Shown here one piece after another: positions 3,547-52,843 of a DNA stretch of 64,000 nucleotides. The stretch spans positions 62,001 through 126,000 of the forward strand of contig JACPUC010000011.1 in assembly GCA_016192455.1 (NCBI GenBank). Reading direction: 5' to 3'. This DNA is from Candidatus Tectimicrobiota bacterium (lineage in GTDB: Bacteria; JACPUC01). The translations under genes and the position numbers were made by a program. Position 1 is the first letter of the stretch; each line of letters begins with the position of its first letter. The notes beneath the pieces are model-generated. The model was not told the DNA's origin and did not search any database. It worked only from the letters and a program-made list of their open reading frames with translations.

Positions 3547-3555
3547 CCCTGGGCC

Positions 3556-34909: not shown

Positions 34910-36502
34910 TCAGCCCAATCCCCGCAGCTTGCAGCCCTCCTGGCGCAGCTTGAACTTCTGCACCTTGCCCGAGGCGGTGAGGGGAAAGCGGTCGGTGACG
35001 TGGACGTGCTGGGGGATTTTGTAGCTGGCGATCTTCCCCTTGCAGTAAGCTTGCAGCTCCTCCTCCGTGAGCCGCATGCCGGGGCGCAGCTCCACGAAGG
35101 CCATGCCCACCTCGCCGTAAACCTTGTCCGGCACCCCCACGACGCACACCTGCTTGATGGCGGGATGACGGCTGAGGAAGTTCTCCACCTCGATCGGGTA
35201 GATGTTGGTGCCGCCGCGGATGTAGAGCTCCTTCAGGCGGCCGGTGACCCGCAGGTGGCCGTCGGGCTCGTGCACGAAGAGGTCGCCGGTGCGCAGCCAG
35301 GCGTCGGGGGTGATCGCCTGCGCCGTCTCCTCCGGCATGTTGTAGTAGCCGCGGGTGATGTTCGGGCCGCGCAGCCAGAGCTCGCCGGAAGCGCCGCGCG
35401 GCGCCTCCTTGCCCGTCCGCGGGTCGACGATGCGCACCTCGAGGTAGTCGTGCGGCACGCCCACCGTGGTGGCGATGATCTCCGGCGTGTCGTCGGGGCG
35501 ATTCTTCGACACCCCCATCGTCTCCGACATGCCGAAGCCGCTGAAGAGACGAACCCCTGGGAAGTTGCGCAGAATCTCCTCGATGAGGGCCGGCGTGGAG
35601 GGCGCTCCCCCGATCCAGGCGAAACGCAGGGAACTGAGGTCGCGCGAGGCGAAGTCGGGGCGGGCCATCATCATCTGAAACATCGTCGGCGTGCCGGAGA
35701 TGATGCTGATGTGCTCGCCTTCGATCAGCTCGAGGGCGCGCTCGGCGTGGAACGTCGGCAGGGCCACGCTGGCCGCCCCCGCGTAGATGGCGCCGTTGAC
35801 GCCATAGGAGAAGCCGAGGATGTGGAAGAACGGCCCCAGCATGAGGATGCGGTCGGCCGGGGTGACGTTGGCGTACTCCCGCAGCGTGCGGGCATTCAGG
35901 AGCACCTGCCCCTGGTCGAGCATGGCGCCCTTCGACTTGCCGGTGGTGCCGGAGGTGTAGATGATGAGCGAGATGTCATCGGGCCTGACGACGGCGCGGC
36001 GCGCCGCCAGGTCGGCGTCGCCCCGTCGTTCTCCCAGGCGCACGAAGGTGTCCAGCGTCATGCCGCCGGGGAATGCGGCCTCCCCCACGCTGATGACCTG
36101 GCGCAGCCTCGGCAGGGCGGCATGGCCGAGGCGCGGCATGATCTCGCTCAGCATGGCGTGGTAGTTGGAGCCGAGAAACTCGGGCATGGTCAGCAGCGCC
36201 ACGCTCTCCGATTGATGCAGGCAGTAGCGCAGCTCCTCGGTCCGGTAGCGGGTGTTGACGGGCACCAGCACCGCCCCGATCTGCGCCAGCGCAAGCTGCG
36301 CCGCGATCCACTCGGGGCAGTTTTTCAGCAGCAGCGCCACGTGCTCGCCAGGCTCCACCCCTTGGGCCAGGAAGGCGCGGGCGTAGGCCGTGCTTTGCTG
36401 CATGAGCGTGTGGTAGGTCCAGGATTTCTCGGCATCCTTGACGGCGAGACGGTCAGGCTGGCTGGCGGCGATTCCTGCGAAGTGATCCCAGATCGACTCC
36501 AT
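34910..36502 (-). CDS. AMP-dependent acyl-CoA ligase
   Basis: A 530-residue class I adenylate-forming enzyme. YTSGTTGKSKG lies at 182-192, FSGFGMSETMG near 325, YNMPEETAQAITPDAWLRTGDLFVHEPDGHLRVTGRLKELYIRGGTNIYP near 395-445 and the acyl-AMP lysine region LTASGKVQKFKLR near the end. The start at 36502 (MESIWDHFAG) is where homology begins. It is divergent from a LivK gene, again pairing CoA activation with a HAAT uptake system. Chain length or aromatic specificity cannot be told. Confidence 0.88.
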   Translation of the reverse strand: MESIWDHFAGIAASQPDRLAVKDAEKSWTYHTLMQQSTAYARAFLAQGVEPGEHVALLLKNCPEWIAAQLALAQIGAVLVPVNTRYRTEELRYCLHQSESVALLTMPEFLGSNYHAMLSEIMPRLGHAALPRLRQVISVGEAAFPGGMTLDTFVRLGERRGDADLAARRAVVRPDDISLIIYTSGTTGKSKGAMLDQGQVLLNARTLREYANVTPADRILMLGPFFHILGFSYGVNGAIYAGAASVALPTFHAERALELIEGEHISIISGTPTMFQMMMARPDFASRDLSSLRFAWIGGAPSTPALIEEILRNFPGVRLFSGFGMSETMGVSKNRPDDTPEIIATTVGVPHDYLEVRIVDPRTGKEAPRGASGELWLRGPNITRGYYNMPEETAQAITPDAWLRTGDLFVHEPDGHLRVTGRLKELYIRGGTNIYPIEVENFLSRHPAIKQVCVVGVPDKVYGEVGMAFVELRPGMRLTEEELQAYCKGKIASYKIPQHVHVTDRFPLTASGKVQKFKLRQEGCKLRGLG

Positions 36503-37034: not shown

Positions 37035-38249
37035 ATGAGTTCAGGTCTGCGGCGTTTTGCATGCACGGTGGGTATCGTCCTGAGCTGCCTGTGCCTGGGG
37101 GTCGGTCTGCTTGCGTCCGCGGCGGCTGAGGGACAATCGCGCGAGCCGATCAAGATCGGGCTGCTCACCCCCCTGAAAGGTGCCCTGGCCCAAAACGGCA
37201 CCGATGTCTCCGAAGGCGTCAGGCTTTACTTCTCGGAACAGAAGAGCGAACTTGCCGGGCGGAAGATCGATCTCATCATCGAGGACACCGCCAGCGACGT
37301 GAACACCGGCCTGACCAAAGCCCGCAAGCTCATTGAACGCGATCAGGTGAAGGTCATCATTGGGCCGGTTCACAGCGGCGTCGCCATGGCGATCCGCAAC
37401 CTGGTGGATGACCGCAAAATCCCGCTCGTCATCACCCAGGCAACGGCGAACGCCCTGACGCAAGAGAAGGCGAGCCCGTACATTTTCCGTCCGTCGTTCA
37501 CCAGCGCCCAGATGCATCTCCCCTTGGGGCCGTACATGGTCAAGAAGCTCGGCTGGAAGCGCGTCGCGGTGCTGGCCCTGGACTACGTGGCGGGTCGCGA
37601 GCAGGCGGACGGGTTCATCAAGAGCTTCAAGGAAGCCGGCGGCACCGTGGCCCTCGAGCTCTACCCCAACCTCGGCGCCACCGACATGGCGCCCTACCTG
37701 ACGCGCATCCGCTCCGAGGCTGAGAAGCTCGACGCCGTGGTGGCCCTCCTTTGGAGCCCGACCGCCATCCATTTCGTGAAAGGCTACCAAGACTTCGGCC
37801 TGAAAGGGAAGCTGCCCCTCTTCGCTCATGGGGCCACGGTGGATGAATCGTTTTTCCCCTCCGAGGGGGATGCCGCCCTGGGGATTCTCAGCCACCTCTT
37901 CTGGTCGCGGGTTCTCGACACCCCGGAAAACAAGCGCGTCTCGAAGCTCATCCAACAGCAGTACAACCGCCCCATGGCCAACAACCACGATCTCGGCTAC
38001 ACCGCCGCCAAGGTGGTGGGCGAGGCGGTGAAGGCAGTGAAGGGCAACGTGGAAGATCAAGCGAAGTTCCTGCAGGCCCTGCGGCAGGTGCGCTTCGAGG
38101 CGCCGCGCGGCCCCTTCCGCTTCGATGACAAGCAGAACGCCGTGATCAACGTCTACATCCGGCGGGTCGAGAAGGTGAACGGCCAGCTCGAGAACGTCGT
38201 CATCGACACGATTCCGGATGTCGACCAGTTCTGGAAGCCGAAGATGTAG
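37035..38249 (+). CDS. HAAT-family solute-binding protein, LivK type (paralogue 1)
   Basis: A 404-residue periplasmic binding protein with signal peptide (GIVLSCLCLGVGLLASAAA, cleavage near residue 31) and mature start EPIKIGLLTPLKGALAQNG. The distinctive core GPVHSGVAMAIRNLVDDRKIPLVITQATANALTQE is shared nearly word for word with the protein at 42503-43717. AGAGGAG lies just before the ATG at 37035. First gene after the strong promoter, directly upstream of two catabolic enzymes. Confidence 0.9.
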   Translation: MSSGLRRFACTVGIVLSCLCLGVGLLASAAAEGQSREPIKIGLLTPLKGALAQNGTDVSEGVRLYFSEQKSELAGRKIDLIIEDTASDVNTGLTKARKLIERDQVKVIIGPVHSGVAMAIRNLVDDRKIPLVITQATANALTQEKASPYIFRPSFTSAQMHLPLGPYMVKKLGWKRVAVLALDYVAGREQADGFIKSFKEAGGTVALELYPNLGATDMAPYLTRIRSEAEKLDAVVALLWSPTAIHFVKGYQDFGLKGKLPLFAHGATVDESFFPSEGDAALGILSHLFWSRVLDTPENKRVSKLIQQQYNRPMANNHDLGYTAAKVVGEAVKAVKGNVEDQAKFLQALRQVRFEAPRGPFRFDDKQNAVINVYIRRVEKVNGQLENVVIDTIPDVDQFWKPKM

Positions 38250-38458
38250 CGCGGCGCGCCGGGCTCGCTTGGGGCGGCGCGGACTGCGCTCTCGCGCGCC
38301 GCCCCGCAGCCGCGGCGCACTTGGGCGGCGCCTCGTCCCGCCCGTCGCCGCGCCAAGGTGGCGCCATGCCGGCGGCCCGGCGGAGAGGTTGGGCATCCCC
38401 ATCCGCCGAGACATTCCATCACCACAGCCAAGGCAGTACGAATCACAAGGAGGTTGAC

Positions 38459-39838
38459 ATGTGCCAGGCGACGGCGACACCCAGTCTGAGCTACGAGGAG
38501 CTCTTGCACCAATCCCGACCAGCGATTGTCGATATCTCCGGCCTGAGCCCGTACGCCGAGCACCTGGCGAGCCAGCCGGAGGCTCGGCACTCGCACGTCG
38601 GCTTCTTCGGCTACGGCAGCACCAAGGCGGGGGATCGGGTGCTCATCGCCGTTGACACCGAGTACGACCCCATCGTGCCGAACGCCATTGCCAAGGCCCT
38701 GCGGGCGCGCGGCGCCAAGGTGGACATCATCACCGTCGATAAGGGTTTCAACAAGGAGTTCGACGAGCTGGATGAGATCCGCGTCAGCATCAGGCGGGAG
38801 TCGTGGAACACCAACCCGCGGCGCTGGGAGGGGACCCCCTGGATCGAGGAGCTTGCCGGCACGAAGAAGTACGACCTCCTTATCCACGGCAAGGGGGGGC
38901 CGGTGGCGCCGTCGTCGTACCGCTACGCCATGATCCCCTGGCTCGGCGTCGATCACTTCGCCGGCCCCAGCACCATCTACCCCCGCGACCTGCAGAAGCT
39001 GATCAACGTGAAGTCCTGGGCCAACTTGTGGGGGAAGGGTCGCGGCGGCAAGGTGCGCATCTCCGACCCGGAAGGGACCGATTTCTCCTTCACGCTCCTC
39101 GAGGAGTACTACGACGGGCGCTACGGCTTCACCGACACGCCGCACTGGGGCCACATGTTCTCCCACCCCACGCTGCCGATCCATGAGCGCGACGACGCCA
39201 CGGGGATCGTCAAGGGCACCACCAACCACTTCTCCCGCCCCTTCCCGCAGATCACCGTCCACCTGGAGAACTGCGCCGTCACCAAGGTTGAGGGGGGCAA
39301 TGAGTACGGCGCCGCCTGGCGGGAGGTCCTGGAAGAGACGAAGAACATCAAGTACCCCAGCTTCCCGCGCCCCGGCCTCTTCTGGCTGTGGGAGGCGGCC
39401 ATCGGCACGAACCCGAAAATCCGCCGTCCGCCCAACATCCACCTGCACTCCTCCGGCGGCCACGAGTGGGAGCGCCGCCGCGCGGGCGTCATCCACCTCG
39501 GCTTCGGCACGGGGTGGCGCGGCCCGGAGGAGCGCTATGCCATCGAGCACGGGCTCACCTACGGCCACCTGCACGTCCATCTCCTCTTCCCGACCGTGGA
39601 GGTGACGACGAAGTCCGGCGAGACCCTGAAGGTGATCGAGCGCGGCCGGTTGAACGCCTTTGACGATCCCGAGGTGCGCGGGCTGGCGACGAAGTACGGC
39701 GACCCCGATGAGCTGCTGCGCGTGGACTGGATTCCGGAGATTCCCGGCGTCTCCGCGCCCGGCTCGTACGCGGAGTACGCCAAGAACCCCGTCCCCTGGC
39801 ACTACAAGGACAAGGAGCGGGGAGCGGGGGCGGCGTAA
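38459..39838 (+). CDS. M29 aminopeptidase/2,5-dihydroxypyridine dioxygenase-superfamily protein
   Basis: A 459-residue cytoplasmic protein. The N-terminal Rossmann-like segment GDRVLIAVDTEYDPIVPNAIAKALRARGAKVDIITVD and the C-terminal His/Glu-rich part (EAAIGTNPKIRRPPNIHLHSSGGHEWERRR, TYGHLHVHLLF) resemble the fold shared by M29 metallopeptidases and NicX-type iron dioxygenases, whose metal ligands are C-terminal His/Glu. An excellent AAGGAGG lies 6 bases before the ATG. Which branch it belongs to is unclear, so ring cleavage or amide hydrolysis are both possible. It precedes a creatinase-like gene. Confidence 0.6.
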   Translation: MCQATATPSLSYEELLHQSRPAIVDISGLSPYAEHLASQPEARHSHVGFFGYGSTKAGDRVLIAVDTEYDPIVPNAIAKALRARGAKVDIITVDKGFNKEFDELDEIRVSIRRESWNTNPRRWEGTPWIEELAGTKKYDLLIHGKGGPVAPSSYRYAMIPWLGVDHFAGPSTIYPRDLQKLINVKSWANLWGKGRGGKVRISDPEGTDFSFTLLEEYYDGRYGFTDTPHWGHMFSHPTLPIHERDDATGIVKGTTNHFSRPFPQITVHLENCAVTKVEGGNEYGAAWREVLEETKNIKYPSFPRPGLFWLWEAAIGTNPKIRRPPNIHLHSSGGHEWERRRAGVIHLGFGTGWRGPEERYAIEHGLTYGHLHVHLLFPTVEVTTKSGETLKVIERGRLNAFDDPEVRGLATKYGDPDELLRVDWIPEIPGVSAPGSYAEYAKNPVPWHYKDKERGAGAA

Positions 39839-39940
39839 GAGCGCCGGCGTCCGCGTCGCATGCCGCGCTGCGGGGAGGCGAGGCCGGGAGGCGCGTCCAG
39901 CGCAGCGGGGCGGGGGCTTGCCGCGGCAGGGAGGTGCAGC

Positions 39941-41182
39941 GTGGAGAAGCTCGCGTACGGGGTGGGAGCGGTTGATTGGCAGGGGCGCATCGACTTCGCC
40001 CGCATGCGGCGGGAGCGGCTCGCCAAGGCCCAGGCGGCCATGAAGAAGCACGGCATCGCCGCCGCGCTGCTCTACCGCTCCGATAACATCCGCTACCTCA
40101 CCGGCGTGCGCGGCGCGCCGGAGTTCGTGCCCGGGCTGCGCTACGCCCTGGCCTTCGCCGAGCACGAGCCGATCATCTACGAGCTGGGGGATACCCTCGA
40201 GTTCAACCGCCACCACTGCCACTGGATCAAGCCGGAGAACTGGCGCTTCTCCTACTGCTGGCTGAACGGCATCGGCGGCCCGGAGGCGTCGCGCGAGACC
40301 GGGCGGAAGTGGGCCGCCGCTATTGCCCGCGACCTGGCGGAGCGCGGCCTGAAAGGGGAGAAGCTCGGCGTGGACGGCATCGACGACGTGGCGCGCGAGG
40401 CCCTCGCCGCCGAGGGGATCAGCGTCGTCAGCGTCACCCCGGCGATGCGCGAGGCGCGCCGCACCAAGACGGCGGACGAGATCAACTGCATGCGGGTGGC
40501 GGTGAACATCTCGAATGCCGGCTACGCCGACCTCTGCCGCCAAGCGAGCCCCGGCATGCGCGAGTGCGACCTCGGCGGCTCCGCCATCAACGCCATCTGG
40601 CGGGCGGGCGCGGAGGCCGCCGTGGCCACGCCGCGCTCCGGCCCCTTCACCTACGAAGTCACCCACATCACCAACACCGACCGCATCATCGAGCCGGGCG
40701 ACCTCATCACCATGAACGTCTGCAGCACCACTTACATGGGCTACCGGGTCTGCATCTACCGCAGCTTCAAGGTGGGACGAAAGCCCACCGCCAAGGAGAA
40801 GGACTGGTACCAGAGGATGTATGACCGCATCTACGCCGTGATCGGCGAAATCCGCCCCGGCGCCACCACCGCGGACGCCGCCAAGCACTTCCTGCCCGCC
40901 AGCACCTGGGGCTACGAGGCCGATGAGCGGCTGCTGGTGGCCGAAGTCGGCCACGGCCTTGGCATGGGCTACGAAGAGCCGGTGATCAGCCGCATCTGGT
41001 CGGAGAAGTATCCGCAGCCGATCGAGCCCGGCATGGTGATCGCCGTCGAGTCGCGCGAGGGGGAGCTCGGCTATGGCGGGGTGCGCATGGAGGAGATGGT
41101 CGTCGTCACCGAGACCGGCCACGAGGTCGTCTCGAACTGGCCCTCGGAAGAGATCATGCCCATCGCGGCCTTCACGATCTGA
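39941..41182 (+). CDS. M24 pita-bread-fold protein, creatinase-like (metal ligands replaced)
   Basis: A 413-residue two-domain protein: N-terminal creatinase-N-like domain (about 15-175, with LLYRSDNIRYLTG) and C-terminal pita-bread domain. In metal-dependent M24 peptidases the first two ligands are Asp in GDxxxxD and GYxxD; here they are N259 (GDLITMN) and C271 (GYRVC). H338 (GHGLG), E370 (AVESREG) and E384 (RMEE) remain. Creatinase shows the same loss and works without metal, so hydrolysis of a guanidino/amidino or similar C-N bond is more likely than peptidase action. The GTG at 39941 has GGGAGG upstream. Confidence 0.8.
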   Translation: MEKLAYGVGAVDWQGRIDFARMRRERLAKAQAAMKKHGIAAALLYRSDNIRYLTGVRGAPEFVPGLRYALAFAEHEPIIYELGDTLEFNRHHCHWIKPENWRFSYCWLNGIGGPEASRETGRKWAAAIARDLAERGLKGEKLGVDGIDDVAREALAAEGISVVSVTPAMREARRTKTADEINCMRVAVNISNAGYADLCRQASPGMRECDLGGSAINAIWRAGAEAAVATPRSGPFTYEVTHITNTDRIIEPGDLITMNVCSTTYMGYRVCIYRSFKVGRKPTAKEKDWYQRMYDRIYAVIGEIRPGATTADAAKHFLPASTWGYEADERLLVAEVGHGLGMGYEEPVISRIWSEKYPQPIEPGMVIAVESREGELGYGGVRMEEMVVVTETGHEVVSNWPSEEIMPIAAFTI

Positions 41183-41203
41183 GGGGGCTGAGGAGGAGGA
41201 GCC

Positions 41204-42226
41204 ATGAAGCGCAGCAGCAGCGTAGCAGTCCTTGCCGCCGTCGTCGCGCTGGCGCTGGTCGGCGCGCACCTCCCCCTGCCTGGCTGGGCGCCGCCGGCCC
41301 GGGCGGAGGAGAGCGTTCGGCTCGGCTACCTGTCGGTGATCTCCTTCGCCCCGGTCTACCTGGCCGAGGACCAGGGATTCCTCAAGGAGCAGGGGCTGAA
41401 GGTCGAGTACGAGCGTTTCGTCTCCGGCTCCAAGATGGTCGCCCCCCTGGCGACCGATCGCCTCAACATCTCGGCGGGCAGCATCAGCGCCGGCTTCTTC
41501 AATTCCCTGGCCCAGGGGAGCGACTTTGTGGTCGTCGCCGATAAGGGCCAGTTCCGCCTGGGGTACGGCTTCAACCACATTGTTGTCAGGAAAGACCTCG
41601 TCGACAGCGGTCGGGTGAAATCGCTCAAGGACCTGAAGGGGATGAAGGTTGCGCCCAACGCGCCGATGAATATCCTGACCTATTTCCTGGGGAACGGTCT
41701 GGAAGAGGCCGGGATGACGCTGAATGACGTTGAGATCGTCTTTGTCGACTTCCCGAAGATGCCGGCGGCGTTGCAGAACAAGGCGGTGGCGGCCGTGGTC
41801 TCCGGCGAACCGTGGGGGGCGCGCATTCAGAAGTTGGGATTCGGCGTGCGCCTCCTCAGCACCGAGGATGTCAAGGCCACCAGGGAGGCCCAGGGCGCGG
41901 TCATCATGTACTCCGGGAAGTTCGCCCGCGAGCGCCGCGGCACGGCGCAAAAGTACATGAACGCCTACCTGAAGGCGGTCCGCTTTTACAACGAGCACGG
42001 GATGAAAGCGCCGCAGGTGCTGGACGTGCTGGAGAAGTGGACGAAGGTGCCGCGGGATATCATCGAGGCGTCAATTCCGTTCTACCTCGACAAGGACGCC
42101 ATGCCGCACACCAAGAGCCTGATGGAGATGCAGGCGTGGTTCCACGCCAAGGGCGCGGTGAAGACGATGGTGCCGCTGGAGCGCATCGTCGATCTCAGCT
42201 TCGTGAAGGCCGCCGCGGCAAAATAG
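41204..42226 (+). CDS. NMT1/TauA-type solute-binding protein
   Basis: A 340-residue binding protein. The signal peptide spans residues 1 to about 34 (AVLAAVVALALVGA, cleavage near ARA). The mature part begins ESVRLGYLSVISFAPVYLAEDQGFLKEQGLKVEYERF, the NMT1/SsuA pattern, with ITYFLGNGLEE-like and PAALQNKAVAAVVSGEPW segments. GGAGGAG precedes the ATG. It sits 22 bases after the creatinase-like gene but has no cognate permease here. The only such permeases in the window are at 19-21 kb. Confidence 0.88.
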   Translation: MKRSSSVAVLAAVVALALVGAHLPLPGWAPPARAEESVRLGYLSVISFAPVYLAEDQGFLKEQGLKVEYERFVSGSKMVAPLATDRLNISAGSISAGFFNSLAQGSDFVVVADKGQFRLGYGFNHIVVRKDLVDSGRVKSLKDLKGMKVAPNAPMNILTYFLGNGLEEAGMTLNDVEIVFVDFPKMPAALQNKAVAAVVSGEPWGARIQKLGFGVRLLSTEDVKATREAQGAVIMYSGKFARERRGTAQKYMNAYLKAVRFYNEHGMKAPQVLDVLEKWTKVPRDIIEASIPFYLDKDAMPHTKSLMEMQAWFHAKGAVKTMVPLERIVDLSFVKAAAAK

Positions 42227-42502
42227 AGAAGATAGGCGGCCGCCCAGCGCAGGCGGTGGGTGCGCCAAGGCGTAGGGGTGGGCCTAGAGGCGGGGAGAGG
42301 GGAGCGCGGGGGTAAGCCTCCAGGGTGTCTTGGCTCCGTGAACCCCGACCGTCGACCGGCGCCAAGCACCACTCAGCCGCTCACCGGGCGGCATCCGCGG
42401 CAGAGGGGGCGCCTTGCCGCCCCGGGAAACGACGCCTGCCGCCGCACCCCAACGCATCGCCGGCGCGCCAACCCGAGGCGAGTAACGGGAGGGGAGAGGA
42501 CC

Positions 42503-43717
42503 ATGTGCCGACTCAACTTGAGCATGAAGCGAGGCTTGTGGGCCGCGGTGATCACCCTGGCGACCCTGGCGGCGACCGTCGCCCCGCGCGCCGCCGGCGG
42601 TCAGGCGGCCGGGCCGATCAAGATCGGGCTGCTCACCGCTATGACGGGGGCCCTGGCCGAGAATGGGACCAGCATCGCCCAGGCGGTGAAGCTCTATTTC
42701 TCGGAGATCGATAACCAGGTCGCCGGGCGGAAGATCGAGCTCATCACCGAGGACACGGCGAGCACGGTGAACACCGGGATCACCAAGACCCGCAAGCTCC
42801 TGGAGCGCGATGGGGTGCACCTCATCCTCGGCCCGGTGCACAGCGGCATCGCCATGGCGATCCGCAACCTCGTGCACGGCCGCAAGGTGCCGCTGGTCAT
42901 CACCCAAGCGACCGCCAATGCCCTGACGCAGGAGCAGGCCAGCCCCTACGTCTTCCGCGCCTCCTATACCTCGGCCCAGGTCCACCTCGGCATGGGGCCC
43001 TACCTGCGGCAGAAGTTGGGCTGGCGGCGCATCGCCATCGTGGCCTTTGATTTCATCGCCGGCCACGAGCACGCCGACGGCTTTATCGGCAGCTTCAAGG
43101 AAGCCGGCGGCGAGGTCGGCCTCGAGCTCTACCCGGCGCTCGGCGCCACCGACATGGCTCCCTACCTGACGCGCATCAAGTCCGAGGCAAACCGGCTCGA
43201 TGGGGTGGTTGCCATCCTCTGGGGCGCGGCCTCCATTCACTTCATCAAGGGCTACCAGGATTACGGGCTGAAGGGGAAGATTCCCCTCCTCGCCTATGGG
43301 GCGACGATGGATGACGCCTACCTGCCCACCATGGGCGAAGCAGCCCTGGGCATCCCAAGCTGGGAAATCTGGTCGCGCGTCCTTGACACCCCGGAGAACA
43401 AACGCTTCGCGCAGGTAGTCCTGACGGCCTACAACCGGCGGGTGACCCGTAACCACGAGCTCGGCTACACAGCCGCCAAGGCCGTCGGCGAAGCCCTCAA
43501 AGCCGTCCAGGGGAAGGTGGAAGACCAGGAGAAGTTCCTCCAGGCCCTGCGCCAGGTGCGCTTTGAATCGCCGCGCGGCCCATTCCGCTTCGATGACAAG
43601 CAGAACGCCGTGGTCACCGTCTACATCAGGGAGGTGCGCAACGTCGACGGCCAGCTTGAGAATGTGGTCACCGACAGCATGCCCGACATCGATCAGTTCT
43701 GGAAAGCGCGCAAGTAG
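42503..43717 (+). CDS. livK: HAAT-family solute-binding protein, LivK type (paralogue 2)
   Basis: A 404-residue protein, the same length as and clearly a close paralogue of the 37035 gene (shared GPVHSG(V/I)AMAIRNLV, LVITQATANALTQE and LGATDMAPYLTRI). The signal peptide is in residues 1-35. GGGAGGGGAGAGG precedes the ATG at 42503. It heads the adjacent livHMGF set and so is the likely dedicated binding protein, while paralogue 1 may offer a second ligand range. Confidence 0.9.
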   Translation: MCRLNLSMKRGLWAAVITLATLAATVAPRAAGGQAAGPIKIGLLTAMTGALAENGTSIAQAVKLYFSEIDNQVAGRKIELITEDTASTVNTGITKTRKLLERDGVHLILGPVHSGIAMAIRNLVHGRKVPLVITQATANALTQEQASPYVFRASYTSAQVHLGMGPYLRQKLGWRRIAIVAFDFIAGHEHADGFIGSFKEAGGEVGLELYPALGATDMAPYLTRIKSEANRLDGVVAILWGAASIHFIKGYQDYGLKGKIPLLAYGATMDDAYLPTMGEAALGIPSWEIWSRVLDTPENKRFAQVVLTAYNRRVTRNHELGYTAAKAVGEALKAVQGKVEDQEKFLQALRQVRFESPRGPFRFDDKQNAVVTVYIREVRNVDGQLENVVTDSMPDIDQFWKARK

Positions 43718-44113
43718 GCAGCGCGCCCGCGGCCCGGCAGGCGGCGCGCCGCAGGGCTGCGGCTGGAGTTGCGCCCCTCCAGCGGTCGGCGCGCGGCACT
43801 CCTGTTTTTCCCGGAATTGCTGAACATCGCGGAGGGGGGGCGGCGCGTGTCTTGAGTCTCACCGGTGCGCGTCAAAGGGTGTTGTGTCTCGCTTTTTGCG
43901 AAAAATGATCCACAACGAGGCTTGCCGCGCACCAGTGATCCACAAAACTCCACAAGGACGGCGCCAGGGCGCAGAGCTTCGCCGAAGCAGGCGTCGAACA
44001 AGCCGCCCTGGCCTGGTTTGAAAGCCTCGGCTGCGCCGTGGCAGCGAGGCGGCGGGGCGCCGCGCAGCGGTCAGACAGCCCGACGTAGCCTTCCACCCCT
44101 GCGGAACTGAGGA
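43718..44113. other. Spacer before livH with repeated TGATCCACA motifs
   Basis: A 396-base spacer. TGATCCACA occurs at 43906-43914 and 43936-43944 (30 bases apart), with a related AACTCCACAA at 43946-43955. A small inverted repeat surrounds GCTTTTTGCGAAAAA (about 43891-43905). It may hold the livH promoter and an operator. No gene is supported. Confidence 0.45.
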
Positions 44114-44968
44114 ATGGCGTACTGGCTCACCCAGACGTTCAACGGCCTGACGTTCGGCATGCTCCTCTTCCTCCTTGCCGCCGGCCTCTCCCTCATCTTC
44201 GGCTTGATGCGCATTGTGAACCTCGCCCATGGTTCGTTCTACCTGCTGGGGGCCTACCTCGCTCTGACCGTCAGCCAGCTCACGGGGAGCTTCCTCCTGG
44301 CTGTCCTGGGGGCCGCCGCCGTCGTGGCCTGCCTTGGCATCGTCATCGAGCGGCTCTTCCTGCGGCGGGTGCAGAACCAGGAGCTGCCGCAGGTCCTCCT
44401 CACGTTCGGCTTCATCTTCGTCCTCGAGGACATCGCCCTGTGGCTCTGGGGAGCCATCCCTACCCTGCTGGAGAAGCCGGTGCTCTTCGCCGGCTCACTG
44501 CAGATCGGCGGCATCGTCGTGCCGAGCTACCGCATCCTGATCGTCGTCGTGGGGCTGCTCATCGCGGCGGCTCTCTGGGCGCTGCAGTCGCGCACCCGCA
44601 TCGGCGCGATCATTCGGGCGAGCGTGGACGATGAGGAGATGGCGCGCGGGCTGGGCATCAACACCCCCCGGATGTTCACCTGGATGTTCGCCCTGGGCTG
44701 CTTCCTCGCCGCCCTGGGGGGAGTGATGGGAGGCGCGCTGGTGGGGATGTACCCGGGCGCCGGCTTTGAGATTCTGGTGTTGGCGCTTGTCGTGGTCATC
44801 GTCGGGGGACTGGGGAGCCTGCGCGGCGCCTTCATCGGCAGCCTCCTGGTGGGGCTGTTGGACAACTTCGGCAAGGCGCTGTTTCCCGAGCTGTCGTTGT
44901 TCACCATCTTTGCCCCCATGGCGATCGTGCTTGCGGTGAAGCCAACCGGCCTCTTTGGAAGAGCCTGA
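44114..44968 (+). CDS. livH: HAAT-family ABC transporter permease, LivH type
   Basis: A 284-residue permease of the third liv set. The N-terminal hallmark is GMLLFLLAAGLSLIFGLMRIVNLAHGSFYLLGAY; the coupling loop RASVDDEEMARGLGINTPRMF is near 172-192. It uses the classical AHG-type motif, closer to the first liv set than to the second. GAGG is adjacent to the ATG. Confidence 0.9.
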   Translation: MAYWLTQTFNGLTFGMLLFLLAAGLSLIFGLMRIVNLAHGSFYLLGAYLALTVSQLTGSFLLAVLGAAAVVACLGIVIERLFLRRVQNQELPQVLLTFGFIFVLEDIALWLWGAIPTLLEKPVLFAGSLQIGGIVVPSYRILIVVVGLLIAAALWALQSRTRIGAIIRASVDDEEMARGLGINTPRMFTWMFALGCFLAALGGVMGGALVGMYPGAGFEILVLALVVVIVGGLGSLRGAFIGSLLVGLLDNFGKALFPELSLFTIFAPMAIVLAVKPTGLFGRA

Positions 44969-44972
44969 GCCG

Positions 44973-45911
44973 ATGCGTCGCTCCACCCTCATCGCGGCGG
45001 TGATCCTGGCGGTCCTGGTGGTTTGGCCGTTCGTCGTGCCCGCCTATACGCGCGGCCTGATGATCCAGACGTTGATCCTGGCGATCTTCGCCATGAGTCT
45101 GGACGTGCAGCTCGGCTACACCGGCCTCCCCTCCCTCGGCCATGCGGCCTACTTCGGGGCGGCCGGGTTCACGGCGGCGCTGCTCATCCTGCACGTCACC
45201 ACCAATTTCTGGCCCATCCTGGCCGCCTGCCTCGGCGTGGCGGCCCTGGGAGCCGCCCTCTTCGGGCTGCTGGCGCTGCAGACCACCGGCGCCTACTTCC
45301 TCATGATCACCCTGGCGCTGGCGCAGGTGCTCTGGGGGCTGGCCTTCAAGTGGCGCTCGTTCACGGGGGGAGAGGATGGCCTGCCCGGCGTCAGCCGGCC
45401 CGACCTGAAGCTGCCGATCTCGCTCTGGAACGACACGACCTTTTACTTCTTCGTGCTCATCACCTTCCTGATCAGCACGGCCCTGCTGCTGCTGCTGGTG
45501 CGTTCCCCCTTCGGCCAGGCCCTCAAGGGGGTGCGGGAGAATGCGCTGCGGATGCGCGCCCTGGGCTACAACGTCTGGCTCTTCAAGTACCTCGGCTTCA
45601 TCATCGCGGGCGTCTTCGCCGGCGTCGCGGGCATGCTCTTCGTCTTCTACAACGGCCACGTCAGCGCCTCCGACTTGAGCATCACGATGTCGGGCCGGGT
45701 GCTCCTGATGGTCATCCTGGGTGGGACGGGGACCCTCGTCGGGCCGATCTTCGGCTCCTTCGCCATTGTCTTCCTGGAGAATGAAATCAGCTCGCAGATC
45801 GAGCGCTGGCCCATTGTCATGGGGGCAATCTACATCGCCGTGGTGCTCTTCGCGCCCCAGGGCGTGATCGGCCTGCTGAAGAGCTGGAGCGCGCGATGGG
45901 GGCGGGCATGA
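44973..45911 (+). CDS. livM: HAAT-family ABC transporter permease, LivM type
   Basis: A 312-residue permease starting 4 bases after livH. The hallmark is AMSLDVQLGYTGLPSLGHAAYFGAAGF near residues 34-60; the coupling loop VRENALRMRALGYNVWLFKY is near 187. The following ATPase start lies inside its last codons, indicating coupling. Confidence 0.9.
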   Translation: MRRSTLIAAVILAVLVVWPFVVPAYTRGLMIQTLILAIFAMSLDVQLGYTGLPSLGHAAYFGAAGFTAALLILHVTTNFWPILAACLGVAALGAALFGLLALQTTGAYFLMITLALAQVLWGLAFKWRSFTGGEDGLPGVSRPDLKLPISLWNDTTFYFFVLITFLISTALLLLLVRSPFGQALKGVRENALRMRALGYNVWLFKYLGFIIAGVFAGVAGMLFVFYNGHVSASDLSITMSGRVLLMVILGGTGTLVGPIFGSFAIVFLENEISSQIERWPIVMGAIYIAVVLFAPQGVIGLLKSWSARWGRA

Positions 45912-46654
45912 AACCCTTGCTCGTTGAGTCGGTCACGAAGAACTTCGGGGGCTTCAACGCCCTCAACGGGGTGACGCTCGACTTCGAGCCGGGCGAGCGG
46001 CGCGCCATCATCGGGCCCAACGGCGCCGGCAAGACGACCCTCTTCAACGTCATCACCGGCGTCCTGCCGCCCTCGGCTGGCCGGGTCGTTCTCTTCGGGC
46101 GCGACGTCACCCGCCTCCCCATGCACCGGCGATCGGCCTTGGGGCTGGCGCGGACCTTCCAGATCAACACCCTCTTCCCGAAGCTGACGATCACGGAGAA
46201 CGTGGCCCTGGCGGTGCAGGCCCAGACGCGCCTGCGCTACGTCTGCTATCGCCCCTGGCGCGCCTACCGGGCACTGACCGAGCGCTGCGACGCCCTCCTG
46301 ACCGCGTGGGGCCTGTGGGACCTGCGCGACGCGCGGGTGAGCGAACTCTCCTACGGCGACCAGCGCCAAGTCGAGATCGTCCTTGCCATGGCCACGCAGC
46401 CCAAGGTCCTGCTGCTCGACGAACCGACCGCGGGACTCTCCACCGCCGAGACCGCCGTCGTCACCGCCTTGATCAAGCAGCTCGATCCGAGCATCACCAT
46501 CGTGCTCATCGAGCACGACATGGACGTGGCCCTGCACCTGGCCGAACGCATCACCGTGCTGCATTACGGCGAGAAAGTCGCCGAGGGCTCCCCCGAGGAG
46601 ATCAAGACAAACCCCCTCGTCGCCGAGATTTACCTCGGCGCGGGGCTGACGTGA
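45896..46654 (+). CDS. livG: HAAT-family ABC transporter ATPase, LivG type
   Basis: A 252-residue ATPase: Walker A GPNGAGKTT near residue 41, LARTFQINTLFPKLTITENVAL near 85, LivG-type signature LSYGDQRQVEIVLAMA near 149, Walker B VLLLDEPTAGLS near 169 and IEHDMD near 203. The ATG at 45896 overlaps livM by 16 bases; an ATG at 45908 is also possible. Confidence 0.9.
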   Translation: MGAGMKPLLVESVTKNFGGFNALNGVTLDFEPGERRAIIGPNGAGKTTLFNVITGVLPPSAGRVVLFGRDVTRLPMHRRSALGLARTFQINTLFPKLTITENVALAVQAQTRLRYVCYRPWRAYRALTERCDALLTAWGLWDLRDARVSELSYGDQRQVEIVLAMATQPKVLLLDEPTAGLSTAETAVVTALIKQLDPSITIVLIEHDMDVALHLAERITVLHYGEKVAEGSPEEIKTNPLVAEIYLGAGLT

Positions 46655-46661
46655 GGGAAGG

Positions 46662-47366
46662 ATGCTCGAGGTCGAGGATATCCACACCTACTACGGCGAC
46701 AGCTACGTCATCCAGGGGGTGTCGCTGCGGGTGCCGGAGCACGCCGTCGTCGCCGTGCTCGGACGCAACGGCGTCGGCAAGACGACCCTGGTGCGCTCCA
46801 TCATCGGCTTCACCCCGCCGCGGCGGGGGAGCATTCGCTTCAAGGGCGTGGAGATCAGCCGCCAGCCGGCCTACAAGATCGTTCGGGCGGGGATCGGCCT
46901 GGTGCCGCAGGGGCGGCGCATCTTCCGCTCCCTGACGGTGAGGGAGAACCTGGAGGTGGCCTCCCTGGCCCGCCCGCCCGGCCGGGCCAGCCGCTGGACC
47001 CCGGACAGCATCGGCAAGCTCTTCCCGCGGCTGCGCGAGCGCGCCTCCCATGCCGGCGTCAAGCTCAGCGGCGGGGAACAGCAGATGCTGGCGATCGCCC
47101 GCGCCCTGCTGAGCAACCCCGAGCTCCTCCTGCTGGACGAGCCGACCGAGGGCCTGGCGCCCCTCTTGGTGCGCGAGCTGCACGCCCTGATCCGCACCCT
47201 CAAAGACGAGGGATTCTCCATCCTACTGATCGAGCAGAACCTCCCCTTCGCCCTCACCCTGGCCGATCACGTCCACGTCATGAGCAAGGGCCGCATCGTC
47301 TATGACGCCCCGCCGGCCGATCTCATGCACAACGAGGCGGTGAAGTCGCGCTACCTGGGCATCTGA
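46662..47366 (+). CDS. livF: HAAT-family ABC transporter ATPase, LivF type
   Basis: A 234-residue ATPase: Walker A GRNGVGKTT near residue 34, GLVPQGRRIFRSLTVRENLEVA near 82, signature LSGGEQQMLAIARALL near 132 and Walker B LLLLDEPTEGLAP near 152. It starts 7 bases after livG and ends the operon. Beyond it lie the tandem composite repeats. Confidence 0.9.
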   Translation: MLEVEDIHTYYGDSYVIQGVSLRVPEHAVVAVLGRNGVGKTTLVRSIIGFTPPRRGSIRFKGVEISRQPAYKIVRAGIGLVPQGRRIFRSLTVRENLEVASLARPPGRASRWTPDSIGKLFPRLRERASHAGVKLSGGEQQMLAIARALLSNPELLLLDEPTEGLAPLLVRELHALIRTLKDEGFSILLIEQNLPFALTLADHVHVMSKGRIVYDAPPADLMHNEAVKSRYLGI

Positions 47367-48400: not shown

Positions 48401-49771
48401 TCAGCGCAGGTCCAGCTTGAAGCCGTCCCAGGCGCGCAGGAAGCGCAGGTGGGCGCCGTCCTGCCACTCCGAGAGGTAGATGGGGCGCACCGCGTCGCCG
48501 CTGCGGGAGAACTTGAAGTCTCCGGTGACGCCCCGGTACTCCAGGCGCCGCATGACGTTGAAGAGCTGGTCGCCGCTGGTCCCCGCCTTGCGGAAGGCGT
48601 TGGCGAGCACGAGCACGGCGTCGTAGGCGAAGGCATGCCACTCGTCGCCTCCCCCCGGCAAGGTCGGCAGCCGCTGCTGGGAGGCCGGCGACGCCTTGCC
48701 CGTGATATGGCCCGGTTCGTACCCCCTGCCGACGAGGACGCCGTTGCCGGCGGTGTCCGTGATGTCGTAGAAGAAGGGGTGAGCCAGCTCCTGACCACCG
48801 AGGAACGGCACCTCCCAGCCCAGCTTGCGCGCCTGCCGCACGATGAGCGCGCTCTCCGTCATCGGGCCGCGCAGGAGGACCGCCTGCGGCTTCAGCAAGT
48901 TCAGGTTGTGCAAAAGGGCCGAGAACTCCGTCCTGCCGAGCTCGTAGTATTGCACCGTGAGGAGCGAGGTGCCGTCCTTCCGCTGCAGGGTGATGGAGCG
49001 CAGGCTCTCCGCGAGATCGCGCCCCGCGGCGCTGTCCGGCCCCACCAGGGCGAAGCTGCGCCAGCCGCGGTCGGCGGCGGCGTAGTCGATGAGGTTGCCG
49101 TAGAGGAGCTCGGCTGATGGGCTGACGCGGAAGACGGTGCGGCTGCCGCCGCGGGTGACCGCGGGCGCATCGTCGGAGAAGACGAGCTGCGGGATGTTCG
49201 CATTGGCGCTGACCGGCAGGACGGCCTGGACCTCGGCGCCGCTGAGGCCGGTGATGAGGGCCGCCACCTGATAGGTGGAGAGGGCGCGCTCGGCGGCGGC
49301 AAGGGCCTCGCCGGCGGTGCCGCGGGTGTCTTCGAAGATGAGGCGCAGGTGCCTGCCGTCGATGCCTCCCGCGGCATTGAACGTGGCGACGGCCATCTCG
49401 ATGGCCCGCTTCGAGGGCTGGAAGAGCGGCGCAAACTCTCCGCTCAAGGGGCCGAGCACGCCGATGGGAAGGGGGAGGGCGGGCGGAGCCTCTTCCGTCG
49501 GCGCCTGCCGAATGGCGGGAGGCGCGGTCGGCTGGGCCAGGGTGGTCAATCCCTGTGCCGCGACGAGGAGCAGCGTGACAGCCGTCAGGGCCGCCGACAG
49601 GCCCAACCGCCCGCCGCGCCGCGCCTCCCAGGCAGTCCGCGGCCCGTTCACGCGCCCGCCAAGCGGCGACCTGCGCTGCGTGGGAGAGGGCACTGCCGGC
49701 TCCACCTCGCCCTCCTGCAAAGCTCCATCGGTGGCCTCGCCGCGGGAACCGGCGCCGCGCCGTCTCGGCAT
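48401..49771 (-). CDS. HAAT-family solute-binding protein, LivK type, atypical N-terminus
   Basis: A 456-residue frame. The binding-protein fold begins LPIGVLGPLSGEFAPLFQPSKRAIEMAVATFNAAGGIDGR (about residue 100), later VFSDDAPAVTRGGSRTVFRVSP. Before it lies a hydrophobic segment (LGLSAALTAVTLLLVAAQG, about 57-75) preceded by a long charged stretch. A GTG at 49651 (VNGPRTAWEARRGGR) would give a normal signal-anchor and is a better start than the ATG at 49771. It is the last gene of a minus-strand catabolic group. No permease is adjacent. Confidence 0.8.
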   Translation of the reverse strand: MPRRRGAGSRGEATDGALQEGEVEPAVPSPTQRRSPLGGRVNGPRTAWEARRGGRLGLSAALTAVTLLLVAAQGLTTLAQPTAPPAIRQAPTEEAPPALPLPIGVLGPLSGEFAPLFQPSKRAIEMAVATFNAAGGIDGRHLRLIFEDTRGTAGEALAAAERALSTYQVAALITGLSGAEVQAVLPVSANANIPQLVFSDDAPAVTRGGSRTVFRVSPSAELLYGNLIDYAAADRGWRSFALVGPDSAAGRDLAESLRSITLQRKDGTSLLTVQYYELGRTEFSALLHNLNLLKPQAVLLRGPMTESALIVRQARKLGWEVPFLGGQELAHPFFYDITDTAGNGVLVGRGYEPGHITGKASPASQQRLPTLPGGGDEWHAFAYDAVLVLANAFRKAGTSGDQLFNVMRRLEYRGVTGDFKFSRSGDAVRPIYLSEWQDGAHLRFLRAWDGFKLDLR

Positions 49772-49849
49772 CCCTCGCCTTGACCGGCCCGAGGCAGCTC
49801 CCGAGGGCCGCCGCGGGCGCCCGCTGCTCGCCCTGGAGCTGGGCGCACC

Positions 49850-50512
49850 TCACTCCCGCAGCATGGCGCTGACTCGCGCCGGCGCCGCGTCGGCGCCCCG
49901 CAGAGGCATCGGGAAGGCCTGCACGAGGTAGCGTCCAGGGGCGAGGGGGGTGAGGTTCAGGTTCTCGATGATCAGCACCTCGGCGCCGAGGAGGGTGCGG
50001 TGGATGGGGTAGGCAAAGTCCTTGCCGCGCAGCGGAAACGGCATATCCGGCGTGACGAAATCGACCCCCACCATCTTCGCGCCGCGCTCGACGAGCCAGC
50101 GCGCCAGCTCCTCCTCGAGGTAGGGATGGAGGTGGTAGTCCTGCTCACCCCACTTCGCCCCCCAGCCGGTCTTGAAGAGGAGGATGTCGCCGGCCCTGAT
50201 CTCCAGCCCCGTTCGCTCCACGTCGGCGACGCTGAAGCCTTCCTTGCCGGGACGTGCAATCGGCACCACGATCCCTTCCCCGGCGAAGCGGTCCAGGCTG
50301 AGCTGGTCGATCGTCTTGCCGCCGGGCACGAAGTGCACCGGGGCGTCCACGTGGGTGCCCAGGTGCGTGCCGCCGCGGTATTCCATCATGCTGAAATCAG
50401 CGCTCGCCGAGGTTTGCAGGCTCTTCAGCGTCGGCCCCGGCACCACGTGCCCATGGGGCATGCCCTCGTAGATCGGCTGCGACAGGTCCACCCAGCGCAG
50501 GGCCATGGTCAT
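49850..50512 (-). CDS. Cyclase-family (kynurenine formamidase-like) metal hydrolase
   Basis: A 220-residue enzyme with the family metal motif GTHLGTHVDAPVHF (HxGTHxDxPxH-type, about residues 49-62). Upstream WVDLSQPIYEGMPHG is the family N-terminus; VGVDFVTPDMPFP and HRTLLGAEVLIIENLNL complete the fold. Members hydrolyse N-formyl-kynurenine, isatin or related amides and cyclic compounds. It sits 45 bases after the FlK-like gene and before LivK. Amide or ring hydrolysis of an imported compound is inferred. Confidence 0.87.
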   Translation of the reverse strand: MTMALRWVDLSQPIYEGMPHGHVVPGPTLKSLQTSASADFSMMEYRGGTHLGTHVDAPVHFVPGGKTIDQLSLDRFAGEGIVVPIARPGKEGFSVADVERTGLEIRAGDILLFKTGWGAKWGEQDYHLHPYLEEELARWLVERGAKMVGVDFVTPDMPFPLRGKDFAYPIHRTLLGAEVLIIENLNLTPLAPGRYLVQAFPMPLRGADAAPARVSAMLRE

Positions 50513-50557
50513 GGCCGTTCCTTATCCCCCAGCGCGCCCGATGCCGGCGCGGCGCCG

Positions 50558-50944
50558 TCAGCTCTTCTTCTCGCCGGCGAAGCGCTGCTTATTCACCACC
50601 ACGCGCACGTGCGTGCCCTCGCCGATCTTCGTCTCGCCGTTCCACGACTCGACCTCGAAGGTGACGCGGCGCTTGTTGATCTCCTTCACCTTTGAGGTGG
50701 TCCTGATCGTATCCCCAACCTTTGCGGCGGCCAGGTGGAAGACGTTGACGTGGTAGCCGACCGAGGCGTCCCCCTCTTCGAAGTGGCGCTCCAGGATGAG
50801 GCGGGAGCACTGCTCGATGAGGCGAATCATCGAGGGGGTGGAGAGGACCGATTGGACATTCGGCCCCATGTGCGAGATGCCGTCGCTCGGCTGCACCACG
50901 TGCGCCGTCTCATTTGATTCACCTACGTGAAGGCCGTCCTTCAT
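50558..50944 (-). CDS. FlK-like hot-dog thioesterase
   Basis: A 128-residue single hot-dog domain. T36, E44 and H70 (STPSMIRLIEQ and VFHLAAA) reproduce the spacing of the FlK fluoroacetyl-CoA thioesterase catalytic residues T42, E50 and H76 (8 and 26 residues apart), and MKDGLHVG plus GEGTHVRVVV match the family ends. It likely hydrolyses a small acyl-CoA; fluoroacetate specificity is not implied, since FlK's special lid is not evident. The start at 50944 matches the family N-terminus. Confidence 0.82.
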   Translation of the reverse strand: MKDGLHVGESNETAHVVQPSDGISHMGPNVQSVLSTPSMIRLIEQCSRLILERHFEEGDASVGYHVNVFHLAAAKVGDTIRTTSKVKEINKRRVTFEVESWNGETKIGEGTHVRVVVNKQRFAGEKKS

Positions 50945-51049
50945 CGTCCCTTCTCCTGCTGGTTCGCTGCCCCCTGGGGCCACTCCATCAACATGGGGGG
51001 CTCCCCGCCGGGCATTCTCAGGCCCCGCCGTGGCCTCCCCTTGCCCGCG

Positions 51050-51071
51050 GAATGTTCCACGTGGAACATTC
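51050..51071. promoter_or_regulatory. parS-type ParB-binding site
   Basis: A 22-bp perfect palindrome centred on CACGTG; its core TGTTCCACGTGGAACA (51053-51068) matches the chromosomal parS consensus TGTTNCACGTGNAACA. It lies in the spacer between the RidA and FlK-like genes. ParB (Spo0J) loads CTP-dependent clamps here during chromosome segregation. No parA or parB gene is in the window. Confidence 0.85.
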
Positions 51072-51118
51072 TCGGCAAGCTACGGAAATCCTTACCTCTC
51101 AGCGTCGCCGCCCCGTCC

Positions 51119-51583
51119 TCACGACTTGAGCTGCACGACCATCTCCACCTCGACGGAGATATTCGAGGGCAGGGCGGCGACGCCGATGGCCGAGCGCGCG
51201 TGGCGCCCGCGCTCGCTCCAGAGCTCGACGAGCAGGTCCGAAAAGCCATTGATGACAAGGGGGGACTTCTCGAACCCTTCCGGCGCGTTCACGAAGCCGA
51301 GCACCTTGACGATGCGCTCCACCTGGTCGAGGTCGCCGACGATGGCCTTGATGTTGCCGAGGGAGTTGACGGCGCAGAGCTTCGCCGCCGCGTAGCCCTC
51401 TTCCATGCTGATGTCGCGCCCCACCTTGCCTTTGTAGACCAGGGCGCCGTCCTTGCGCGGCCCCACCCCCGAAACGAACACAAGGTTGCCGACGCGGATC
51501 GCTGGCTCATACGTGCCGGCGGCCTTCATCGGGGTGGGGAGTTTCAGACCCATGCGTTCCAGCTTTGCTTCAATTTCGCCCAT
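51119..51583 (-). CDS. RidA/YjgF-family protein
   Basis: A 154-residue member of the Rid family (reactive enamine/imine deaminases; also includes aminomuconate deaminases). The typical N-terminus is LGLKLP-like (MGLKLPTPMKAAGTYEPAIRVGNLVFVSGVGP) and the centre has NSLGNIKAIVGDLDQVERIVKVLGFVNAPEGF. It is of the longer Rid subgroup, and the C-terminal RSAIGVAALPSNISVEVEMVV replaces R-x-x-V-x-V-x-x-LP. GGAAGG precedes the ATG at 51583, which is preferred to an ATG 13 codons earlier. Confidence 0.87.
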   Translation of the reverse strand: MGEIEAKLERMGLKLPTPMKAAGTYEPAIRVGNLVFVSGVGPRKDGALVYKGKVGRDISMEEGYAAAKLCAVNSLGNIKAIVGDLDQVERIVKVLGFVNAPEGFEKSPLVINGFSDLLVELWSERGRHARSAIGVAALPSNISVEVEMVVQLKS

Positions 51584-51640
51584 GATATCCTTCCATTCTT
51601 GGTATGGCGACCGTGACGCCACTCTCCCGAAACTAACCCC

Positions 51641-51646
51641 AGTGTA
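51641..51646 (-). promoter_or_regulatory. Extended -10 element before the RidA gene
   Basis: On the minus strand the sequence reads TGCTACACT: a TACACT -10 with an upstream TGC extension, about 60 bases before the ATG. No good -35 is visible. Confidence 0.4.
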
Positions 51647-51788
51647 GCAAAGTTACGGCGCCGCCGCATCCGGAAGACGCGGGGATACCCGGCCGGCTGC
51701 GACCTGACGCTGCCGCCTAGTGTTACGTCTCACAAGTTCCATCCTAAATTCGACGCCTTCTTTGTGCCATCTGCCGGGGGAAATTTTT

Positions 51789-51895
51789 TGTGGGGGACCC
51801 TTGCTCCCCCACACCCCCACTCCCCGCGAGCTGCTACGCAGCTCGCGGAGTTGGGGTGCGCGAGGGGGCGAGGCTCCCTCGCAAATCTATACGAT
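51789..51895. repeat. Double stem-loop repeat, uninterrupted form
   Basis: First hairpin: TGTGGGGGA (51789-51797) with TCCCCCACA (51805-51813). Second: CCGCGAGCTGC (51824-51834) with GCAGCTCGCGG (51838-51848), loop TAC. Then TTGGGGTGCGCGAGGGGGCG and CTCCCTCGC. The same framework recurs at 55541-55637 with a different second loop. The rest of the 51584-51931 spacer (about 51720-51788) shows an AT-richer patch and no gene. Confidence 0.75.
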
Positions 51896-51931
51896 CTAAT
51901 TTGAGAAACAGCACACGAGAGACCTCGCCCC

Positions 51932-52843
51932 TCACGCGAAGAGCCAGCCCTCGGCCACCTTCACCACCTGGCCGCCGACGCGGATGGCGGTGATTTCCTC
52001 TCCGCGGCGCCGCACCTCGATGAGGATGCGGCTGGGACGCTGCATCTCGAGGCCCTGCTCGGCCACGAGGCGCGCGGTCGGCCCCTCCGGCAACAGGCCA
52101 TGCCGCGCCAGGTAGGCGCCGAGGCACCCCGAGGCGCTGCCGGTGGCCGGGTCCTCGGGCACGTTGATCCCCGGCGCGAACATGCGGGCGTGCACCTGGG
52201 CGGCGGCGGCGACCGTCTCGCGGCAGAAGGCGTACAGGAGGTTCGTCGGCAGGTCGGCGAAGATGCGCTCGAAGGCATCGAGGTTGACGCGCATCCGCTG
52301 CATCGCCTTGAGCGAGCAGACCGGCACCATGAGGAAGTGCAGGCCGGTCCAGACCACCTCCATCGGCAGGCCGGCGCCGGTGATCTCCGCCGCCGGGATG
52401 CTCAGCGCCTCGGCGACGAGGCCGGCGTCCTGGAAGACCGGGCCGTAGCGCGGCAGCTTCTGCTCCATGGTCACGAGGTCGATCCCCTGCGCTCCCCGCC
52501 GCAGCTCAACCGGGATGAGGCCGACGCCCAGCTCGAGCACCATCGTCGTCGTCTCCGCCGCCGGCTTCAGCATGCCCGCGTCGGCGAGGACGAAGGCCGT
52601 GCCCAAGGTCGGATGCCCGGCAAACGGCACCTCCCCGCCGGGCGTGAAGATGCGCACCCGCCAGTCCGCCCCCGGCGTCGAGGTGGGGAAGATGAAGGTG
52701 CTTTCGGAGTAATTCATCTCCCGCGCGATGGCGAGCATCCGCCGGTCGTCCAGCTCGCGCGCGTCGGTGAAGACCGCAAGCTGATTGCCGCCGAACGGGA
52801 CGCTGGTGAAGACGTCCACCTGGACGAAACGATACGCCGTCAT
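51932..52843 (-). CDS. PhzF-family isomerase-like protein
   Basis: A 303-residue protein of the PhzF/diaminopimelate-epimerase-like fold. The family N-terminus is YRFVQVDVFTSVPFGGNQLAVF, with conserved acidic residue E47 in NYSESTF (catalytic Glu of PhzF), FAGHPTLGTAFVLA near 75 and DPATGSASGCLGAYL near 225-240. The start at 52843 is the homology boundary. No other phenazine genes are present, so a general isomerase or unknown role is more likely than phenazine synthesis. It heads the minus-strand RidA/FlK/cyclase/LivK group. Confidence 0.88.
   Translation of the reverse strand: MTAYRFVQVDVFTSVPFGGNQLAVFTDARELDDRRMLAIAREMNYSESTFIFPTSTPGADWRVRIFTPGGEVPFAGHPTLGTAFVLADAGMLKPAAETTTMVLELGVGLIPVELRRGAQGIDLVTMEQKLPRYGPVFQDAGLVAEALSIPAAEITGAGLPMEVVWTGLHFLMVPVCSLKAMQRMRVNLDAFERIFADLPTNLLYAFCRETVAAAAQVHARMFAPGINVPEDPATGSASGCLGAYLARHGLLPEGPTARLVAEQGLEMQRPSRILIEVRRRGEEITAIRVGGQVVKVAEGWLFA

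Follow-up and report, generated by a model that had tools for sequence, protein, structure and literature searches.

The 64,000-nucleotide stretch of contig JACPUC010000011.1 from a Candidatus Tectimicrobiota bacterium that was analyzed here (the window) contains, at 37035-47366, a cluster of nine genes, all on the plus strand, which we consider, with a probability of roughly 0.55, to serve the substrate-specific uptake and catabolism of a compound by means of a Liv-type importer with duplicated receptors, an M24 protein that cleaves a C–N or similar bond, and a NicX-fold protein that opens or hydrolyzes a ring. In the model proposed here, the receptors LivK1 and LivK2, born of a duplication, are likely to recognize small organic acids or amides of a related kind, and the captured compounds would be imported by LivHMGF, which would be served by both receptors. 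In the cytoplasm, the M24 protein, which is without the full binuclear metal site, may cut a bond of the C–N type or one similar to it; as a putative metal enzyme, the NicX-fold protein would open or hydrolyze an aromatic, heteroaromatic, or cyclic-amide ring, the steps presumably following in this order. The gene set and its order (LivK1, NicX/M29-fold, M24, NMT1-type, LivK2, livHMGF) had been described in a sequence-only reading with exact coordinates, order, and strand, on which our coordinates and the Pfam matches agree; its functional interpretation as a whole, in which both receptors feed one permease for nitrogenous compounds of the cyclic amide, guanidine, or pyridine type that the two enzymes then open and hydrolyze, is partly supported.

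The 459-amino-acid cytoplasmic NicX-fold protein (38459..39838, plus strand) is unclassified: searches of Pfam, NCBIfam, and the PDB sequences, with the single sequence and with a profile, returned no match, the NCBIfam searches with five of its relatives were likewise empty, and comparison with the Pfam M29 model (PF02073) gave nothing at E ≤ 10. No PF02073 match was obtained in the whole source genome; control genomes did match. The assignment comes instead from profile comparison and from two AlphaFold2 models, one built on six sequences, with a mean predicted local distance difference test score (pLDDT) of 59, and a better one built on eight (mean pLDDT 70; predicted template modeling score, pTM, 0.71). 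All eight PDB matches below 0.001 found by Foldseek were NicX (7cn3, 7cup) or M29 aminopeptidases, with both models in agreement and a Foldseek value of 1.7e-13 for the AlphaFold2 model. When the better model was aligned with VIA-align, NicX came out on top with a Z of 17.2 over 290 residues, followed by the M29 aminopeptidases AmpT, AmpS, and PepS (Z 10.7-12.0) and by the crocagin proteins CgnE and CgnB (Z ~10), with all others at or below 8. In hhalign, the NicX-fold family matched a NicX-like protein from Nonomuraea at 9.4e-18 and an actinomycete M29 protein at 4e-4 (probability 34%, motifs collinear). Membership in the NicX/M29 fold superfamily, on which the sequence models are silent, is thereby confirmed at the level of the predicted structure and of profile comparison, and the label given from the sequence was right.

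The candidate metal site was mapped by way of the Nonomuraea protein and of an M29 protein from an actinomycete. The former (L040 9524-10678), which is without a Pfam or NCBIfam model, has NicX as its best PDB match (5.6e-5) and keeps the positions of NicX His265 and of the His-x-Asp motif; its HMMER alignment with NicX gaps next to this motif, and an ungapped alternative, pairing AHCD with CHLD, was chosen by judgement. In NicX, the 2,5-dihydroxypyridine 5,6-dioxygenase of Pseudomonas putida, the Fe(II) ligands are His265, Ser302, His318, and Asp320 (PMC7910607). His265 (in SHIGWGLQP) aligns with WEAAIGTNP of the window protein, giving Glu312, a position at which M29 also has Glu, and the counterpart of Ser302 is ambiguous in the alignment. 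The His-x-Asp motif (CHLD in NicX, LHWD in M29, AHCD in the Nonomuraea protein) becomes GHLHVH, i.e. HxHxH, in which the His of CHLD (His318) is retained; the motif maps to H370/H372 or H372/H374, as the alignments differ, with Asp turned into His either way. With respect to the M29 aminopeptidases, the Glu of ELGIG and the His of GTVH are aligned, the latter (Tyr in NicX) being retained as His346, whereas the Glu of GExxTAP is His232. The candidate metal residues are thus H232, E312, H346, and H370/H372/H374, of which H232 and E312 are invariant in 8/8 family sequences and H346 and the HxHxH histidines in 7/7 of those reaching that far.

The metal ligands of M29 enzymes are Glu, Glu, His, His, and Asp, and the low-identity alignment places His232, Glu312, His346, and HxHxH there instead. 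The Fe(II) ligand set of NicX is likewise altered, through the change of His265 to Glu312 and of HxD to HxH, and NicX differs further in its identity (~15%) and length (~350 residues vs 459). Judged by these residues, the NicX-fold protein keeps a plausible metal site, and would bind a metal, yet it is neither an M29 peptidase nor NicX. Its reaction could be an O2-dependent ring opening, to which we give close to an even chance, or a hydrolysis, which is about as likely and is a serious, though not a favored, option. If the cluster were instead an ordinary system that takes up peptides and branched-chain amino acids and includes an M24 and an M29 peptidase, misread as unusual, the Liv-type importer, the two receptors, and the two peptidase-fold proteins would all be in place; this we hold to be very improbable, since the Pfam M29 model misses the NicX-fold protein, it lacks both an M29 Glu and the HxD Asp, the M24 protein is without two metal Asp residues, and the scanned transporter parts all lie below the curated LivK/H/M/G cut-offs.

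Homologues of the NicX-fold protein were found in 2 of 386 broadly drawn genomes (the source genome and G031, a genome of another phylum), in 3 of the 394 genomes searched from the actinomycete class, and, in a contig scan of genomes, in two Pseudonocardiales metagenome-assembled genomes. A plasmid search returned one relative, the Nonomuraea protein (28% identical), viral contigs contained none, and none was detected in 195 genomes of another phylum, a search without positive control. In G031, one copy (L007) stands after TctC and UbiD genes and before a DctM-type permease, a second (L005, L008) adjoins an ATPase named PotA-type from its sequence, with a UbiD gene on the same contig, and a third (L009), cut by the contig end, has an SsuABC-type set ~6 kb away. 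Two actinomycetes share a conserved operon (L053 8904-15884; L054 9423-16363) of cupin, TctC, TctA-like, TctB-like, peroxiredoxin-like, bicupin, and NicX-fold genes, the Tct and peroxiredoxin names being taken from sequence or from similarity to L007, and the best PDB match of the bicupin is gentisate 1,2-dioxygenase (1e-14). In the Pseudonocardiales genomes, the neighbors are an allantoinase/dihydroorotase-like amidohydrolase, luciferase-like monooxygenase (LLM) oxidoreductases, an aldehyde dehydrogenase, a thiamine pyrophosphate (TPP) enzyme, and a bicupin, and an importer was not identified within the stretch read around the homologue. What these neighborhoods share is a theme of degrading small cyclic compounds, in most cases with an importer alongside, and the neighbors suggest aromatic, heteroaromatic, or cyclic-amide compounds.

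It is in this context that a narrower explanation has to be weighed, in which the compounds taken up are carboxylic acids with an aromatic or heteroaromatic ring, the LivKs serve as receptors for aromatic acids, and the NicX-fold protein acts as a ring-cleaving Fe(II) dioxygenase with Glu/His/His replacing His/His/Asp. The closest fold is that of NicX, UbiD genes lie near two of the homologues, and the gentisate-dioxygenase-like bicupin adjoins two further ones; in addition, the PDB relatives of LivK1 include 4zpj (7e-75) as well as the group of entries 4ey3/4eyg/4eyk, and the R. palustris receptors among them include 4eyg, the title of which names vanillic acid and which leans toward aromatic acids as much as toward guanidines. 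However, His265 and Asp320 of NicX are not conserved in the NicX-fold protein, and the cluster itself is without UbiD or cupin genes; we regard this explanation as possible but unlikely. The nearest UbiD-family decarboxylase gene (7377-8765; TIGR00148 above cut-off) is situated ~30 kb from the NicX-fold gene.

In the preferred reading of a substrate-specific uptake and catabolic cluster, the C–N bond would be cleaved by the 413-amino-acid M24 (pita-bread) protein (39941..41182, plus strand), which matches Pfam Peptidase_M24 at 1.9e-26 (93.6 bits vs a cut-off of 23) and Creatinase_N at 1.7e-7 and has an N-domain of the creatinase/prolidase type. An M24 domain and a creatinase-type N-domain are common to it and to the non-peptidase M24 proteins creatinase, DddP, and ectoine hydrolase DoeA, to the last two of which it is 24-26% identical. 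The DddP metal ligands are Asp295, Asp297, Asp307, His371, Glu406, and Glu421, and at these columns the window protein has Asn259, Cys261, Cys271, His338, Glu370, and Glu384, i.e. N/C/C/H/E/E vs D/D/D/H/E/E (PMC4108388). In terms of the binuclear M24 ligand set (Asp, Asp, His, Glu, Glu), Asn259 and Cys271 replace both Asp residues. The nearest relatives (32-38% identical; haloarchaeal plasmids, Paenarthrobacter, Phaeobacter) all have Cys for Asp307 and keep Asp295, whereas the window protein is without both; as judged from these alignments, a standard peptidase with a binuclear site is an unlikely identity for it. The designation creatinase-like is fair as a loose label, by analogy, in view of the M24 and Creatinase_N domains and the lost Asp ligands. 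Close relatives of the M24 protein (E ≤ 1e-30) occurred in 0/59 genomes. Four phage-labelled Listeria records with a ~30% match over half of the protein were taken as ordinary peptidases and set aside.

The relatives on haloarchaeal plasmids and in Paenarthrobacter (33-38% identical) have Liv-type importers and assorted catabolic genes in their vicinity, the Haloferax one adjoining hydantoinase A/B, whereas the surroundings of the Phaeobacter relative include a sugar-type importer and a 2-oxoacid dehydrogenase set. Genes for hydantoinase A and B also flank paralogous LivK or LivK-LivHMGF loci in the source genome (C24; L028 3258-7216, 14315-16084; L029 10472-12253), and in G031 an M24 gene, an acyl-CoA ligase-like gene, an isochorismatase-family gene, and hydantoinase A are found near a related LivK. 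Together with the Creatinase_N domain and the lost Asp ligands, these neighborhoods could be taken to mean that the cluster scavenges nitrogen of the creatinine or hydantoin type, with a functional creatinase/amidinohydrolase as its M24 protein and guanidino or hydantoin compounds as its imports, along the lines of the sequence-only reading. Yet Pfam and NCBIfam place no creatininase, hydantoinase, carbamoylsarcosine amidase, sarcosine oxidase, or urease among the nine genes, such a pathway has no place for the NicX-fold protein, the nearest M24 relatives are proteins of unassigned function, and the hydantoinase A/B families include other activities as well; we consider this explanation quite improbable.

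The receptors LivK1 (37035..38249; Pfam Peripla_BP_6, E 1e-74) and LivK2 (42503..43717; 9e-72), both plus-strand periplasmic binding proteins of the Liv type (HAAT) and both 404 amino acids in length, are identical at 267/399 positions (67%), a likeness far beyond chance, and in a tree of the Liv-type receptors of the source genome and G031 they are sisters with 100/100 support. After LivK2, the next best matches of LivK1 are 51% identical in G031 and 43% in the source genome. The identity by codon position is 0.75/0.85/0.59, and because the third positions have diverged most, the duplication must be old and the proteins under constraint. The G+C content of the cluster genes (0.63-0.69) is similar to that of the window (0.67). 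The equal lengths, the long shared identity, the origin by duplication, and the presence of a single permease had all been asserted from the sequence, and all hold.

That permease consists of LivH (44114..44968; BPD_transp_2 1.3e-38), LivM (44973..45911; BPD_transp_2 8.7e-43), and the ATPases LivG (45896..46654; NCBIfam UrtD/LivG models, below cut-offs) and LivF (46662..47366; ABC_tran 9.2e-32), all on the plus strand, so that with the Peripla_BP_6 receptors the parts of a Liv/HAAT ATP-binding cassette (ABC) importer are complete. Urea (UrtABCDE) and branched-chain amino acid (LivKHMGF) transport were rejected as specific assignments, given that in an NCBIfam scan that left out LivF the curated cut-offs were missed by far (UrtA 95/493 bits, UrtB 166/250, UrtD 221/304, LivG 198/362). 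In Escherichia coli, LivJ and LivK share LivHMGF, and two receptors per Liv permease are ordinary; since the layout also recurs on contig C24 of the source genome and C144 of G031, the arrangement of the cluster is not new. Unlike in the E. coli LIV-I/LS systems, enzyme genes are linked to the transporter here and LivK1 and LivK2 lie far below the LivK model cut-off. The NMT1/SsuA-type periplasmic binding protein (41204..42226, plus strand; Pfam NMT1_2 5e-23; NCBIfam SsuA_fam below cut-off) is an orphan, as the matching permease is absent from the cluster.

Several observations weigh against the preferred reading. The intergenic gaps from LivK1 through LivH (~209, 102, 21, 276, and 396 bp) are large among the first genes for one transcript; no promoter match was found within the cluster region, and the few terminator-like plus-strand matches there are all inside genes. 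The exact gene set occurs at no other locus among the genomes examined, of which the source genome is the sole representative of its phylum, and the pairing of the NicX-fold and M24 proteins hence rests on one locus. For the exact set, the lack of conservation that the sequence-only reading had named as refuting its proposal is thus what was observed, though the two halves recur separately near importers: homologues of the NicX-fold protein with an importer in their vicinity (in G031 and in two actinomycetes), and a Liv importer close to a related M24 protein. The neighbors vary among the homologue loci, hence no single substrate emerges, and the metal-site assignment draws on alignments of ~15-30% identity and on a model with a mean pLDDT of 70. 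Literature searches covering NicX, creatinase, and clusters of Liv genes turned up no pathway described with this gene set, as had been supposed. The combination is thus new among the genomes examined and without support from conservation, and the unnamed NicX-fold family, with its rearranged candidate metal site, is the real lead.

An AMP-binding acyl-CoA ligase gene (34910-36502) is divergent from LivK1, and G031 has ligases resembling it close to loci with a related LivK or a NicX-fold gene. Behind the cluster, convergent with it on the minus strand, 48401-52843 encodes a third Liv-type receptor and Cyclase/arylformamidase-like, FlK-type thioesterase, Rid-family, and PhzF-like proteins, which looks like a second catabolic set. 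Judged by gene starts and similarity, Liv-type transport sets are present three times in the 64 kb (647-4272, 13864-18985, 44114-47366), along with several additional receptors, and the source genome seems rich in such importers.

As for the wider meaning, the authors of the NicX study were aware of no structure, before theirs, of an enzyme that cleaves the pyridine ring (PMC7910607). The link between NicX and the M29 peptidases is little explored. We tentatively suggest, while thinking it more doubtful than probable, that the NicX-fold protein may stand for a class of its own within the NicX/M29 superfamily, the third by function, in which the metal site is rearranged (His232, Glu312, His346, HxHxH) and which catalyzes an undescribed ring-opening or hydrolytic step, usually behind a dedicated importer. 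For tests, the actinomycete operon, which carries a homologue at 52% identity and comes from a genome available as a single 7.16 Mb contig, is easier to work with than the genome of the window. A family of the same fold, with no Pfam or NCBIfam entry and with metal residues unlike those of either relative, would show how a single scaffold can pass from hydrolyzing peptides to opening rings or back, and unnamed genes of uncultured bacteria and of actinomycetes would gain a function.

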